Positions 17,250 to 23,153 of a stretch of DNA of 64,000 nt are shown here, one piece after another. The DNA lies in contig NZ_CP109009.1 in the NCBI RefSeq assembly GCF_036226685.1, positions 3,348,001 to 3,412,000 of the forward strand. The letters run 5' to 3'. The DNA comes from Streptomyces sp. NBC_00690. Its GTDB lineage: Bacteria > Actinomycetota > Actinomycetes > Streptomycetales > Streptomycetaceae. How positions within the stretch are numbered: the stretch's first letter is position 1; every line of letters begins with the position of its first letter. The notes under the pieces were generated by a model, which had not been told where the DNA came from, made no database searches, and was given only the letters and a program-made list of their open reading frames with translations. The position numbers and the translations under genes are program-made.

Positions 17250-19670
17250 ATGAGTCAGGAGCCCCAGCAGGGTTGGACCCCCCGGGACGAGACCGTCTCG
17301 GCACCCGGGCAGCCGCAACCGCGCGGGAACCGGCCCCGACGCACCGGCTGGCGGCGCCTCGTACCCACCTGGCGGGCCGTCATCGGCGCGATCCTGCTGA
17401 TCGCACTCCTCCTGATCGGCGGATTCGCGGCCGGATACCTGCTCGTCGACATCCCGCCCGCCAACGCCACCGCAACCGCCCAGTCCAACGTGTACCTCTA
17501 CGCGGACGGCACCCAGATCGCCCGGGACGGCGAAGTCAACCGGGAGAACGTCCAACTCGCCCAGGTCCCCCTGACGGTGCAACGCGCCGTCCTGGCCGCA
17601 GAAGACCGCAACTTCTACTCCGAACGGGCCGTCGACCCCAAAGCCATGGTCCGCGCCGCCTGGAACACCCTCACCGGAAAGGGCAAACAATCCGGCTCCA
17701 CCATCACCCAGCAGTACGTCAAGAACTACTACCTCGGCCAGGAGCAGACCCTCTCCCGGAAATGGAAGGAATTCTTCATCTCGATCAAGCTCAGCCGTGA
17801 GCAGAGCAAGACCGAAATCCTCCAGGGATACCTCAACACCAGCTACTTCGGACGCAACGCCTATGGAATCCAGGCCGCGGCCCAGGCGTACTACGGCAAG
17901 GACATCGAGGACGTCGACACCGCCGAAGGCGCCTACCTCGCATCCCTCCTGAACGCGCCCAGCGCCTACGACGTCACCACCCACCCCGAGAACCGGAGCT
18001 CAGCCCTCGGCCGCTGGAACTACACCCTCGACGGCATGGTCAAGGAAGGCTGGCTCAGCGAGGCCGAACGGGCGGCGATGACCTTCCCCGCACCGCAGGA
18101 GGCCAAGCCCGCCATCGGGCTCTCCGGACAGCGCGGCTATGTCGTCCAAGCCGTCGAGGAGTACGTGACCAGCCACGACATCATCGACGAGAACACCCTG
18201 GCCGCCGGCGGCTACCGCCTCACCACCACTCTCCAGCGCGCCAAGCAGGACGCGTTCGTCGAAGCCGTCGACGACCAGGTGACATCCCGACTCGACCAGG
18301 ACCGCAAGGCCGACCGCAACGTACGCGTCGGCGGCGCGGCCATCGACCCCGAAACCGGCAGGGTCGTCGCCCTGTACGGCGGCATCGACTACACCCGCCA
18401 GTACGTCAACAACGCGACCCGCCGCGACTACCAGGTCGGCTCCACATTCAAACCCTTCGTCTTCACCTCAGCGGTGGAGAACGACTCACGAACCCAGAAC
18501 GGCCGCCGCATCACCCCCGAAACCATCTACGACGGCACCGACCGACGACCCGTCCGCGGCTGGAGCGGAGGCCGCTACGCCCCCGAAAACGAGGACGGCA
18601 TCTCCTACGGACCCATCACCGTCCGCGAAGCCACCGACCGTTCCGTGAACTCCGTGTACGCCCAGATGGCAGTCGACGTGGGCCCCACCCAGGTCCGCCA
18701 GACCGCGATCGACCTCGGCATCCCGGCCACCACCCCGGACCTGACCGCCAGCCCCTCCATCGCACTGGGACCCGCGACGGCCAGCGTGCTCGACCTGGCC
18801 GAGGCGTACGCCACCCTCGCCAACCACGGCCGCCACGGCACCTACGCCCTCGTCAGCAAAATCACCAAAGATGGCACGGCCGTACGACTCCCCCCGACCG
18901 ACACCCGACAGGCCGTCAGCCGAGAAGCCGCCGACACCACCACCTCCATCCTCCAGAGCGTCGTCGACGACGGCACCGGCACCGCCGCCCAATCAGCGGG
19001 ACGCCCGGCAGCAGGCAAGACCGGCACCGCCGAAGAGGACAAGGCAGCCTGGTTCGCCGGCTACACCCCCCAGCTCGCCACCGTCGTCGCCGTCATGGGC
19101 CAGGACCCGGAAACCGGTGCGCAAAAACCCCTGTACGGGGCGCTCGGCCTCCCGCGGATCAACGGCGGCGGGGCACCCGCACGCATCTGGGGACAGTTCA
19201 CCGGAATGGCACTGGAAGGCACGGAGATCACCGAGTTCGACCTGGAACTAGAACCCGGCGCAAACGAACCGGAACCTATGCCCGAATCACCCGACGAGGA
19301 CTCGTCCCCACCCCCGTCCGAGCCCGACGACGACAGCCCATCGCCCGAACCCAGCGAAGAAAGCCCCGACGAGAGCCGCGCACCGAGCGAAAACCCCTCA
19401 GCAGACGACACGGGCACCGCGGACACCGGGGACGGCGACACAGGCGGGGGCGACAGCAGCGCACCTCAGGGAACCGGACCGGCAGGCCCCGGCCACGATC
19501 CGCGCCCCGGCGGCCATCGCGACGGCCCCGGCGACCACAGCAGATTCCAGGACACCGGCCCGGGAGCGCGAAGGCCCGACGGCCGCACGGGAGAAGAGCA
19601 GCCGGGCGCACCGCCACCGAACCACCACAACGCGCCGATGCCTCAGGGCCGGGCCAACGAGAAGGGGTGA
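17250..19670 (+). CDS. Class A penicillin-binding protein (GT51 + transpeptidase)
   Basis: An 806-aa bifunctional peptidoglycan synthase. A cytoplasmic N-terminus and one membrane anchor (about residues 37-62) precede a GT51 glycosyltransferase domain (AEDRNFYSE with the catalytic Glu; SGSTITQQYVKN). A penicillin-binding transpeptidase domain follows, with SxxK at STFK (Ser about 398), SVN, and KTGT (Lys about 590). The last 150 residues are an acidic Pro/Glu/Ser/Asp and Gly-rich tail with no fold. It builds the cell wall on the outer face of the membrane. The ATG at 17250 is preferred, but GTG at 17235 in the same frame cannot be excluded. Confidence 0.93.
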   Translation: MSQEPQQGWTPRDETVSAPGQPQPRGNRPRRTGWRRLVPTWRAVIGAILLIALLLIGGFAAGYLLVDIPPANATATAQSNVYLYADGTQIARDGEVNRENVQLAQVPLTVQRAVLAAEDRNFYSERAVDPKAMVRAAWNTLTGKGKQSGSTITQQYVKNYYLGQEQTLSRKWKEFFISIKLSREQSKTEILQGYLNTSYFGRNAYGIQAAAQAYYGKDIEDVDTAEGAYLASLLNAPSAYDVTTHPENRSSALGRWNYTLDGMVKEGWLSEAERAAMTFPAPQEAKPAIGLSGQRGYVVQAVEEYVTSHDIIDENTLAAGGYRLTTTLQRAKQDAFVEAVDDQVTSRLDQDRKADRNVRVGGAAIDPETGRVVALYGGIDYTRQYVNNATRRDYQVGSTFKPFVFTSAVENDSRTQNGRRITPETIYDGTDRRPVRGWSGGRYAPENEDGISYGPITVREATDRSVNSVYAQMAVDVGPTQVRQTAIDLGIPATTPDLTASPSIALGPATASVLDLAEAYATLANHGRHGTYALVSKITKDGTAVRLPPTDTRQAVSREAADTTTSILQSVVDDGTGTAAQSAGRPAAGKTGTAEEDKAAWFAGYTPQLATVVAVMGQDPETGAQKPLYGALGLPRINGGGAPARIWGQFTGMALEGTEITEFDLELEPGANEPEPMPESPDEDSSPPPSEPDDDSPSPEPSEESPDESRAPSENPSADDTGTADTGDGDTGGGDSSAPQGTGPAGPGHDPRPGGHRDGPGDHSRFQDTGPGARRPDGRTGEEQPGAPPPNHHNAPMPQGRANEKG

Positions 19671-19712
19671 CGAACGCCCTCGGCGCCGCCACCCCCACTC
19701 ACCAATACGACC

Positions 19713-20033
19713 TCAGTGACCGGACGTCGCCTTCAGTCCGACCACGGCGACCAGCAGCAGCGAGACAAAGAAGATACGGGCTGCCGTCACCGGCTCGTTC
19801 AGGGCCACCATGCCCACGATCGCCGCACCGGCAGCACCGATACCGACCCACACGCCGTACGCCGTGCCGATCGGCAGCGTCTTCGCCGCCTGCGCCAGCA
19901 AGAACATGCTCGCGACAATGCCCGCGCCCGTGAAAACACTGGGCCAGAGCTTGGTGAAACCATCGGTGAACTTCATACCGATCGACCAGCCGACCTCAAG
20001 CACACCGGCGATGATCAAAAGAACCCAGGCCAT
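19713..20033 (-). CDS. gdx: SMR-family guanidinium exporter (Gdx/SugE type)
   Basis: A 106-aa protein with four transmembrane helices. The first holds the essential glutamate (IIAGVLEVGWSIGMKFTDGFTKL). The GW.IGMKYT/DGFT pattern is the signature of the SugE/Gdx branch of small multidrug resistance proteins, which work as guanidinium/proton antiporters, rather than of the EmrE/Qac branch. A guanidine-III-like aptamer sits in its leader, which independently supports the assignment. The ATG at 20033 has GGAGG at a good distance. It converges with the PBP gene. Confidence 0.9.
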   Translation of the reverse strand: MAWVLLIIAGVLEVGWSIGMKFTDGFTKLWPSVFTGAGIVASMFLLAQAAKTLPIGTAYGVWVGIGAAGAAIVGMVALNEPVTAARIFFVSLLLVAVVGLKATSGH

Positions 20034-20065
20034 GACGGCACCTCCGAGAGACACGATTTCAACGG

Positions 20066-20109
20066 GGTGCGTCGTCTTTGCCAGCCCGGTACGGCGCGTC
20101 TCGTCGGGG
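20066..20109 (-). ncRNA. Guanidine-III (ykkC-III) riboswitch aptamer
   Basis: The transcript strand carries the conserved ykkC-III elements in order: CCCGACGAGAC, GCGCCGUACCGGG and CAAAGACGACGC. They match, from memory, the core of the crystallised Thermobifida fusca aptamer (ACGAG, GCGCCGUACC, AAGACG). CCCG can pair with CGGG (P1), and GCGCCGU with ACGACGC (P2 pseudoknot helix), with a single C-A mismatch. It ends 32 bases before the gdx ATG and close to the GGAGG site, fitting control of translation initiation by guanidine. Confidence 0.78.
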
Positions 20110-20140
20110 TTGGTTCCACCGTAGCAAATCAACGGCGGAA

Positions 20141-20166
20141 GGGCTGGTGAGATCAGTCACCAGCCC
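20141..20166 (-). terminator. Hairpin between groES-like gene and gdx leader
   Basis: A perfect 10-bp inverted repeat (GGGCTGGTGA, loop GATCAG, TCACCAGCCC) lies downstream of the GroES-like gene and upstream of the gdx leader, on the same transcript strand. There is no T-tract. It may end transcription of the former gene or be a regulator site for the latter. Confidence 0.5.
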
Positions 20167-20275
20167 CCATGGGCCACCGGAACCGCAGCCGGAGCAGAGC
20201 AGAAAAGTGCAGGCCAGCGAGGGGCACAGCGCAGGTCGACCCGGATCGGCAGGGGACAGCAGGTGCCAATCCGGG

Positions 20276-20632
20276 TCAGAGGTAGAGCCCGGTGGAATCC
20301 TCGGAACCCTGGAAACGATCAGCGGCCACCGCATGCAGATCGCGCTCCCGCATCAGCACGTACGCCACGCCCCGGACCTCGACCTCGGCCCGGTCCTCAG
20401 GGTCGTACAACACCCGGTCACCGACCTCCACCGTCCGCACGTTCTGTCCGACCGCAACCACCTCGGCCCAGGCGAGGCGCCGGCCGACCGCCGCGGTCGC
20501 CGGGATCACAATGCCGCCCGTGGAACGACGCTCGCCCTCCGGACCGTCGGTGCGCACCAACACGCGGTCGTGCAGCATGCGAATGGGCAGCTTGTCGTGC
20601 TGGGTGCCGTGCTCATGACTGTTGGGGCTCAC
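20276..20632 (-). CDS. GroES-like (Cpn10 fold) protein
   Basis: A 118-aa protein with the chaperonin-10 layout: PIRMLHDRVLVRTDGPEGERRSTGGIVIPATA at the N-terminus and VAVGQNVRTVEVGDRVLYDPEDRAEVEVRGVAYVLMRERDLHAV after it. The mobile loop is recognisable (RRSTGGIVIP). The C-terminal extension beyond the fold is short. It is not next to a groEL, so it is a diverged paralogue of GroES rather than the main co-chaperonin. Partner unknown. Confidence 0.82.
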   Translation of the reverse strand: MSPNSHEHGTQHDKLPIRMLHDRVLVRTDGPEGERRSTGGIVIPATAAVGRRLAWAEVVAVGQNVRTVEVGDRVLYDPEDRAEVEVRGVAYVLMRERDLHAVAADRFQGSEDSTGLYL

Positions 20633-20675
20633 CCGATGAACCTACCTGCCCCCGGGCGGTTCACCCGCCCACGGG

Positions 20676-20999
20676 TCACCGACGGCGCTTGCGTCCGGTG
20701 GAAACGGCCATCAGCCCCACCAATCCGACCACGGCCACCGCCAGTGGCACCAGCCGTTCCAGTCGCGGTGCGCCGTCGGCCGAGACGAACACTGCCCGTA
20801 CGTCCGACACCTTGCCGTTGACCGTGGCGAAGGCCCGTCCCGCGGTCCGATCGACCGTGGAAGCCGCCTTGGCCTTCGCATCGCCGATGATCGTCTTGGG
20901 GTGCACCCGCACCCCGATCTCGTCGAGCGTCTCGGCAAGCTGGTCGCGCCTGCGGACGATGTCCGCCTCGATCTGCGCAGGGGTCCTCGCGTCCGACAC
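20676..20999 (-). CDS. DUF3618 small membrane protein
   Basis: A 107-aa protein. The N-terminal motif RTPAQIEADIVRRRDQLAETLDEI is diagnostic of DUF3618. An amphipathic helical middle is followed by one C-terminal membrane segment (LVPLAVAVVGLVGLMAVS) and a basic tail (GRKRRR). In Streptomyces, DUF3618 proteins often sit with phage-holin-like DUF1469 proteins and are thought to be peripheral envelope proteins. No activity is known. Confidence 0.85.
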   Translation of the reverse strand: MSDARTPAQIEADIVRRRDQLAETLDEIGVRVHPKTIIGDAKAKAASTVDRTAGRAFATVNGKVSDVRAVFVSADGAPRLERLVPLAVAVVGLVGLMAVSTGRKRRR

Positions 21000-21780: not shown

Positions 21781-22455
21781 ATGGGCAAGAGCCCCTATAC
21801 AGAGGATCGCCTCGCCGCAGCGGCACAATCTTCGCGAACGCTGACCCAGGCACTGGTCCACCTCGAAATCGACCCGAAGAGTCCAACGCGCAAGTACATC
21901 AGCGAGCGGATGAAGCGGCTCGGAATATCCACCGACCATTTCGAACGTGAAGGGGCACGGTGGACGCGAGACATCCTTGAACCGGCTGTGGCGGCTTCGA
22001 CCAGCGTGTACGAGGTACTGCGGTGGCTGGGCATCGAGGCTGTGGGAGGTCACCACACGAACATCAGCCGCCGTATCAAAGCTTATGGAATCGACACCTC
22101 CCACTTCCGGCCCCCGCCGCCCAGCGGAAGGGCTCGACGGCGCGCGCCGGGATCGCTGCTGGTGGAACAGCCCCCTCAGGGCGCTCGGCGCATCCGGGGC
22201 GAGCGTCTCAAACGCGCCCTCGCGGCCACCGGCGTGCCCAACCGATGTGTTCTGTGCGGGACCGGCCCGTTGTGGCGCGGGCGCCCCCTTCCGCTGGAGG
22301 TCGATCACATCGATGGTGACTGGCGCAACAACCGGATCGAGAATCTACGTATCCTCTGCCCCAACTGTCATTCGGCCACGGACAACTACCGAGGTCGTGG
22401 AAAGGGCGGGCGAACAGCCGTCGCCCAGTGCGCTGAGGCCAGGACGACCGAATGA
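21781..22455 (+). CDS. HNH endonuclease with N-terminal helical repeats (first of a pair)
   Basis: A 224-aa protein. Two similar 45-residue helical units (RLAAAAQSSRTLTQALVHLEI..., then ILEPAVAASTSVYEVLRWLGI...) resemble helix-turn-helix DNA-reading modules, each ending in a GI-T/D-HF pattern. The C-terminal HNH domain has the zinc CxxC (RCVLCG), the catalytic LEVDHIDGD and the LRILCPNCHS half. It has a good ribosome site (GGAGGAACC). The stop overlaps the next gene as ATGA. Target and role are unknown; it may be a free-standing nuclease or a mobile-element remnant. Confidence 0.82.
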   Translation: MGKSPYTEDRLAAAAQSSRTLTQALVHLEIDPKSPTRKYISERMKRLGISTDHFEREGARWTRDILEPAVAASTSVYEVLRWLGIEAVGGHHTNISRRIKAYGIDTSHFRPPPPSGRARRRAPGSLLVEQPPQGARRIRGERLKRALAATGVPNRCVLCGTGPLWRGRPLPLEVDHIDGDWRNNRIENLRILCPNCHSATDNYRGRGKGGRTAVAQCAEARTTE

Positions 22456-23153
22456 GTTCGGCCGCCAGGCGCTATACGCCCGCAGAACTGAGGACAGCAG
22501 CGCAGCAGTGCACGAGCCTGGACGAGGTCATCGCATTCTTCGGCACGTCCCCCTACGAAGGACTGAAGCGCCATCTGCTCCGCTGTTTCGAACAGAACGG
22601 CATCGACGTCTCACATTTTCCGCGACGCCGACGCAGCGGACCGCGGCCCTCAAGCGCCGAACTGCGCACGGCGGTGGCGGCCTCAAGCTCCTTGGCTGAA
22701 GCGCTGAGGCGACTCGATCGGCGGGACAACGGTGTTCAACGGGCGGCTTTGCGCAACTGGATAGCGGAAGAAGCCCTCCCGACATCCCATTTCCTGGGCC
22801 AGGCACAGGGACGGGGAAAGCCATCCACCACGCCGAGGGCGAACGCGGTGCATGTACTCACCAGGCGCAGAGGCGGCCACCGAACGAAGACGGCCCGGTT
22901 GCGTCAGGCTCTGCGTGATCTCGGGTTGCCGGAGCAGTGCGCCGGCTGTGGCACTGGACCTGCGTGGCAGGGTCGGACGATGACGCTGGAGATCGACCAC
23001 ATCAATGGCGATCCACTGGACGATCGTGCGGAGAACCTTCGACTGCTGTGCCCCAACTGCCATGCGGTCACCAGTACATGGTGCCGGGGCGGCAGGCCCC
23101 GAGACGCACGGGCAAACGAGGGCGCCGAAACGTCGGAGCAGCCGCTACCATAA
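22452..23153 (+). CDS. HNH endonuclease with N-terminal helical repeats (second of a pair)
   Basis: A 233-aa paralogue of the preceding gene, with the same plan. Two helical units (ELRTAAQQCTSLDEVIAFFG..., then ELRTAVAASSSLAEALRRLD...) each end near DVSHF or TSHF. A C-terminal HNH domain follows, with QCAGCG, LEIDHINGD and LRLLCPNCHA. It begins within the stop of the first copy (ATGA), so the two are made together. The pair ends only 10 bases before a tRNA gene. The coupled expression suggests they may act as a heterodimer, but that is inference. Confidence 0.82.
   Translation: MSSAARRYTPAELRTAAQQCTSLDEVIAFFGTSPYEGLKRHLLRCFEQNGIDVSHFPRRRRSGPRPSSAELRTAVAASSSLAEALRRLDRRDNGVQRAALRNWIAEEALPTSHFLGQAQGRGKPSTTPRANAVHVLTRRRGGHRTKTARLRQALRDLGLPEQCAGCGTGPAWQGRTMTLEIDHINGDPLDDRAENLRLLCPNCHAVTSTWCRGGRPRDARANEGAETSEQPLP

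Follow-up and report, generated by a model that had tools for sequence, protein, structure and literature searches.

On the minus strand of the 64,000-nucleotide stretch analysed here (the window), an RNA element matching the guanidine-III family lies 32 nt 5' of the start codon of a 106-amino acid SMR exporter gene of the Gdx type. Both the riboswitch and the exporter are encoded entirely on this strand, a refinement to the first-pass annotation, and the exporter ORF starts with an ATG at 20033. Its product matches PF00893 with 92.3 bits (cut-off, 23.7), and the five Gdx-Clo pocket residues are all present (E13, W16, S42, Y59, and W62). Among solved relatives, Gdx-Clo is the closest, at 120.6 bits. 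Gdx-Clo (PDB 6wk5) is a guanidinium exporter of the SMR family from another lineage than that of our predicted exporter, and the two share their length class and the end GLKATS as well as the pocket residues. SMR multidrug exporters of the EmrE/Qac type have the Pfam family in common with the protein, although the match is far weaker (EmrE entries score at most 46 bits). Position 16 is Trp in the window's exporter, as is conserved in Gdx proteins, whereas Qac proteins have Gly or Ala there, according to the accessible part of a published account (PMC7695847). The view that the protein has Gdx rather than EmrE landmarks, taken earlier from the sequence, is thus upheld by W16 and by the scores against solved relatives. 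The NCBIfam SugE equivalog NF008512 scores 113.8 bits on the exporter, below its cut-off of 126, and this model alone does not define the Gdx subtype. Judged by its residues and relatives, the 106-amino acid protein probably exports guanidinium. There are two further SMR genes in the genome, of which the search pattern picked up L236 and not L234. In L236, position 16 is Phe, and CGTACC is absent from the 120 nt upstream of the gene.

The Rfam covariance scan placed Guanidine-III (RF01763) at 20125 to 20066 on the minus strand, where it scores 42.4 bits and so exceeds the gathering score of 36; the E value is 1.8 × 10−5 for the 64-kb window and 6.2 × 10−7 for the genome. This is the single RF01763 match in the 9.17-Mb genome at E ≤ 0.001, and the guanidine-I and guanidine-II models had no match in the genome at the same threshold. 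The first-pass annotation had proposed a guanidine-III riboswitch before a Gdx-type exporter, and the scan sustains that proposal, with a significant score over the 20066 to 20109 interval. As far as identity alone is concerned, we regard it as almost certain from the sequence that the element is a guanidine-III riboswitch. This offers a firm label (guanidinium exporter under guanidine control) for a gene that is perhaps annotated merely as a multidrug SMR or SugE protein. A guanidine-III switch before a small pump is an ordinary, textbook arrangement, and the family, its gene association, and its proposed translational control are already published; the original guanidine-III validation is reportedly that of Sherlock and Breaker in 2017. 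In the accessible portions of the literature, ykkC-III is described as preceding emrE and speB genes in Actinobacteria and delta-Proteobacteria (PMC2864571), the ligand and a predicted translational role are given for guanidine-III (PMC12186494, PMC7266159, and PMC5696562), and earlier annotation of SMR genes had already recorded guanidine riboswitches close by, those of class III among them (PMC7695847).

Table 1. Features of the riboswitch-exporter locus (window coordinates; numbering of aptamer nucleotides follows T. fusca).
Feature	Position	Strand	Basis
gdx-type SMR exporter, 106 aa (stop codon included)	19713..20033	-	PF00893 92.3 bits; Gdx residues; best solved relative Gdx-Clo
Shine-Dalgarno GGAGG	20041..20045	-	sequence
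P2 3' strand and tail GACGACGCACCCC, proposed anti-Shine-Dalgarno strand	20064..20076	-	duplex with 20050-20031, −15.9 kcal/mol
Rfam Guanidine-III (RF01763), whole match	20066..20125	-	42.4 bits, gathering score 36
Minimal pseudoknot aptamer	20069..20108	-	sequence placed on T. fusca numbering of PMC5696562 (accessible part)
P1	20108-20105/20088-20085	-	sequence; 4/4 standard pairs
Core ACGAG	20104-20100	-	sequence
Third strand AC	20099-20098	-	sequence
P2	20097-20091/20075-20069	-	sequence; 6/7 standard pairs
C15 of P2 mismatch (partner A38 at 20072)	20094	-	sequence; C·A in 17/29 gene-selected loci
AAG	20078-20076	-	sequence
Probable −10 box TACGGT (in TTTGCTACGGT)	20118..20123	-	recurrent box before ACGAG in relatives
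Inverted repeat GGGCTGGTGA-CTGATC-TCACCAGCCC, between Cpn10-like gene and riboswitch	20141..20166	-	sequence

Read on the minus strand from 20108, the leader runs CCCG-ACGAG-AC-GCGCCGU-ACC-GGG...AAG-ACGACGC and continues with ACCCC, a spacer, GGAGGUGCCGUC, and the AUG. The conserved elements stand in the order first described for them (CCCGACGAG at 20108 to 20100, GCGCCGTACC at 20097 to 20088, and AAGACG at 20078 to 20073), and the P1 pairing CCCG/CGGG claimed with them is present. Against the T. fusca aptamer, the window's aptamer differs in P1 (CCCG/CGGG versus CCGG/CCGG), in third-strand nt 10-11 (AC versus GU), in the nucleotide opposite C15 (A38 versus G38), and in the loop end (GGCAAAG versus GGACAAG). 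The conserved core of ACGAG, CGUACC, and AAGACG is present and the ligand contacts C6, G7, and G17 are unchanged; these features, the P1/P2 H-type pseudoknot, and an SMR gene downstream are shared with the T. fusca structure as set out in the accessible part of its report (PMC5696562).

In the genus, 168 of 199 genomes have a Guanidine-III match (163 above the cut-off); in the class sample, which takes in members of the genus, the figure is 124 of 296 (118 above the cut-off). The RNA search yielded 201 loci, picked non-randomly from the listed hits; after removal of L033, a short duplicate of L052, 172 of 200 could be parsed, and several of the 28 unparsed loci lacked a clear core on inspection. 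Sets for the masking and folding analyses were limited to loci with a start codon 8 to 80 nt past the aptamer, giving 170 loci (137 non-redundant) for swaps, 165 for folding, and 150 for the segment test. Note that the Trp found three residues after Glu in all 143 linked SMR proteins is a product of the search pattern and was not used as evidence. To avoid choosing loci by their RNA, we also selected them by the exporter protein in 61 family genomes, 60 of which had a protein match. For each of the best 30 protein matches (L237 to L266, the first being the window's own), the 160 nt upstream were searched for the aptamer pattern ACGA(G/C)..CGTACC, tolerating a single substitution. It was found in 29, hereafter the gene-selected loci, and AAGAC was also present in 25 of these. 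The exception was the most distant of these 30 matches (50% identity), which is without the pattern in that interval. By these sequence comparisons, the linkage between aptamer and exporter is more than chance.

The aptamer probably lies close to the start of its transcript. Among the 94 parsed loci with an AC linker, a box T(T/C)GCTANNNT ends 10 to 15 nt before ACGAG in 79 (in 1 it lies at 34 nt, and 14 are without it), and none of 846 background windows, taken 120 to 500 nt upstream of the same aptamers, contains the box. A similar box is present in 19 of the 29 gene-selected loci. A sigma-70 consensus scan of 19600 to 20700 found no promoter. Going by the box, the RNA probably starts at about 20111-20110, just before the aptamer. 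Should the box be a −10 element, transcription would begin near 20111, which would leave the Rfam model's 5' hairpin inside the promoter; the stretch aligned to that hairpin (about 20125 to 20110) is probably promoter rather than RNA. The hairpin (model positions 6 to 20) aligned with gaps and with one pair flagged as a bad mismatch, and it overlaps the −10-like box. It also falls outside the 41-nt crystallised aptamer described in the accessible part of PMC5696562.

Further upstream, the inverted repeat listed in Table 1 is possibly the terminator of the Cpn10-like gene. The Cpn10/GroES-like protein (118 amino acids; 20276 to 20632, minus strand) matches PF00166 with 69.7 bits but reaches none of the cut-offs of the 12 listed NCBIfam GroES models. 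On the plus strand, two overlapping ORFs (21781 to 22455 and 22452 to 23153) are apparent tandem paralogues. They carry what we take to be an HNH-like motif, E(V/I)DHI(D/N)GD...LCPNCH.

We propose that the element acts as a translational ON switch for guanidine: while the ligand is absent, the ribosome-binding site is masked by the 3' strand of P2 together with its tail. The transcript would begin immediately 5' of the aptamer. In the guanidine-free state, translation would be kept low by a duplex between the GACG..GCACC strand and GGUGC..CGUC, the sequence surrounding the ribosome-binding site. Guanidinium would bind the Hoogsteen edges of G7 (20102) and G17 (20092) and lock the P1/P2 pseudoknot, which would draw the P2 3' strand off the ribosome-binding site and allow the pump to be made. 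The pump would then swap guanidinium for protons. Because the masking duplex uses P2's own strand, the two structures would be mutually exclusive, as an ON switch requires. The accessible text of the structural report likewise proposes that ligand binding exposes the ribosome-binding site (PMC5696562), and that of a review gives the class a predicted translational control together with mRNA stabilisation (PMC12186494).

In the window's duplex, GACG pairs with CGUC and GCACCCC with GG-A-GGUGC, at −15.9 kcal/mol. We tested the corresponding ten-base segment, nt 37-46 (GACGCACCCC, 20073 to 20064), against the 17 nt ending with the start codon. Across 79 linker-AC loci, its mean duplex energy was −12.24 kcal/mol (shuffled, −7.52), it beat its own shuffles in 76 of the 79, and its energy was the lowest of eight aptamer segments tried. 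The segment nt 34-43 reached −9.12 kcal/mol (shuffled, −6.13) and was better than its shuffles in 70 of the 79 loci. The 5' leader segment showed moderate complementarity in 61 of the 79 and is therefore a possible alternative masking partner. No excess complementarity was seen in these loci for the other five segments (two from the core, the P2 5' strand, the P1 3' strand, and the post-tail stretch). Loci without the AC linker gave no clear masking excess, with nt 37-46 beating its shuffles in 28 of 63 and nt 34-43 in 34 of 63. When ribosome-binding sites were swapped between loci, the observed mean was reached in 53 of 2000 swaps for the 137 loci, in 26 of 2000 for linker-AC loci, and in 109 of 2000 outside them. 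The masking pairing is conserved rather than shown by covariation.

A thermodynamic switch model, folding leaders with and without P2 held and with no pseudoknot term, was tried and set aside, as it did not separate the states. In the window's leader, the pairing of GGAGG was 0.82 free versus 0.78 with P2 held. With P2 held, 10 of 93 linker-AC loci had the site freed by >0.2 and 7 had it buried by >0.2; the site was freed in 1 and buried in 28 of 64 other loci, and freed in 3 and buried in 0 of 8 loci linked to genes for metallo-β-lactamase (MBL)–fold proteins. We put the translational reading at about 0.7, because the swaps cost little, the 63 other loci are without a clear excess, and folding frees few sites. 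Identity and translational ON mechanism taken jointly are held with good confidence, reduced by the results in loci without the AC linker.

An alternative, compatible with the ON switch, is that the aptamer mainly shields the mRNA from nucleases, the ligand-bound 5' end blocking their scanning and translation being secondary. Nuclease protection is ascribed to guanidine-III in the accessible part of a review citing Richards and Belasco 2021 (PMC12186494), and the −10-like box so close to ACGAG places the aptamer at the extreme 5' end. However, some other cause would have to be found for the strong complementarity that the P2 tail shows to the ribosome-binding site in linker-AC loci, and we consider shielding unlikely to be the main role.

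Within the aptamer, the C-A mismatch in P2 had been called the weak point of the assignment, a worry that the relatives do not bear out. Among the 29 gene-selected loci, pair 15-38 is C·A in 17, A·A in 3, G·G in 1, C-G in 3, U-G in 3, and U-A in 2; it is standard in 8 and non-standard in 21. The other six P2 pairs are standard in all 29, three of them being fixed by the search pattern. In both the parsed and the gene-selected loci, pairs 16-37, 17-36, and 18-35 are set by the search patterns, and only pairs 12-41 to 15-38 are informative. Among the 172 parsed loci, the combination of AC with GCGCCGU/ACGACGC (C15·A38) occurs in 93 of the 94 linker-AC loci, and a purine stands at nt 38 in 170 of the 172 parsed and 29 of the 29 gene-selected loci. 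The Infernal alignment carries a bad-pair mark only at the 5' hairpin and none at pair 15-38, which we take to mean that the Rfam model scores C·A favourably. Since C·A is unmarked and the pair is non-standard in most relatives, sequence comparison indicates that the mismatch is a clade feature and the commonest state in relatives. A mismatch of this kind is no ground for discarding such guanidine-III hits.

The same counts bear on the reading that the aptamer has decayed or altered and lost guanidine sensing. C20094 and A20072 cannot pair in the standard manner and the score is modest (42.4 versus 69.2 bits for the top genus match), as that reading would expect, but a state shared by nearly all parsed linker-AC loci, a pair that is non-standard in most gene-selected loci while its six neighbours hold throughout, and intact ligand-contacting C6, G7, and G17 make it very improbable. 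Transcriptional attenuation, by a leader terminator that guanidine prevents, is scarcely credible here: it is known for the guanidine-I and guanidine-IV classes in the accessible part of PMC12186494, but a terminator scan requiring a T-run found no site in 19600 to 20700, and no T-run lies between the aptamer and the start codon.

In the crystal, as far as the accessible text describes it, C15-G38 is contacted by the third-strand G10 (PMC5696562). Given this contact, the triplex side of nt 38 may be the feature that is kept. Strict covariation of nt 10 with nt 38, as a base triple changing as a unit, was considered on the strength of A10 occurring with A38 in 103 of 103 A10 loci (172 parsed) and later dropped: a tree of the 143 linked SMR proteins has only 2 changes at nt 10 and 5 at nt 38, and C15·A38 occurs with G10 in three gene-selected loci (L259, L261, and L265). 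As a tentative and on the whole doubtful suggestion, the clade may hold pair 15-38 off Watson-Crick as a tuning element. Nt 38 would stay a purine, held by the third strand on its triplex side, and in the absence of guanidine the weakness of the pair would allow the 3' strand of P2 to move to the ribosome-binding site; with the aptamer at the extreme 5' end, one change of fold would control the access of both ribosome and nuclease.

The searches also returned variant forms of guanidine-III and other downstream genes. A pattern with CACG in place of AAG was found in 11 of 392 genus genomes (L202 to L212), where it lies about 111-119 nt 5' of an Ohr-type (organic hydroperoxide) gene; 8 of these loci were read through to the gene. 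In named genomes, 15 of 21 exact matches to the CACG form precede an Ohr-like start, by eye (L213, L216 to L222, L224 to L227, L230, L232, and L233), and no Ohr start was seen at L223. One Ohr protein downstream of the CACG form was tested and matches TIGR03561 with 135.5 bits. Among the literature matches listed for the Ohr-type association, the term guanidine riboswitch was absent. A separate ligand class for the CACG form before Ohr-type genes (L046, L047, L092, L093, L094, L105, L106, and L107) is not favoured, because the form also precedes SMR-like genes in L215, L228, and L229 (a Myxococcaceae bin, a bin labelled Bifidobacterium breve, and Conexibacter arvalis). In two actinobacterial bins (L214 and L231), the protein downstream of the CACG form is presumably isochorismatase-like.

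In L135, L173, and L183, the gene immediately after the guanidine-III aptamer encodes a small membrane protein of the CBU_0592 family (NF047864; all three tested are above the cut-off), and L184, L187, L189, and L194 show, by eye, the same arrangement with a CBU_0592-like small membrane protein. Among the literature matches listed, the family name was absent; the protein is a candidate for a membrane protein with a guanidine-related role. In eight loci (L034, L039, L049, L075, L097, L181, L182, and L201), the aptamer has a linker of four bases and precedes an MBL-fold hydrolase of 262-263 amino acids, with PF00753 in the one tested. Seven aptamers before SMR-like genes (L024, L146, L155, L158, L159, L168, and L169) have ACGACGG(A/T)TCAGTACC...AAGACTGGCC, with A-U at pair 16-37 and C at nt 9. 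The core containing nt 9 and pair 16-37 is given as >97% conserved in the accessible part of PMC5696562. Last, guanidine-III precedes agmatinase-like ureohydrolases in L113, L115, L116, and L122 (PF00491 in the one tested), which is the known speB-type association.
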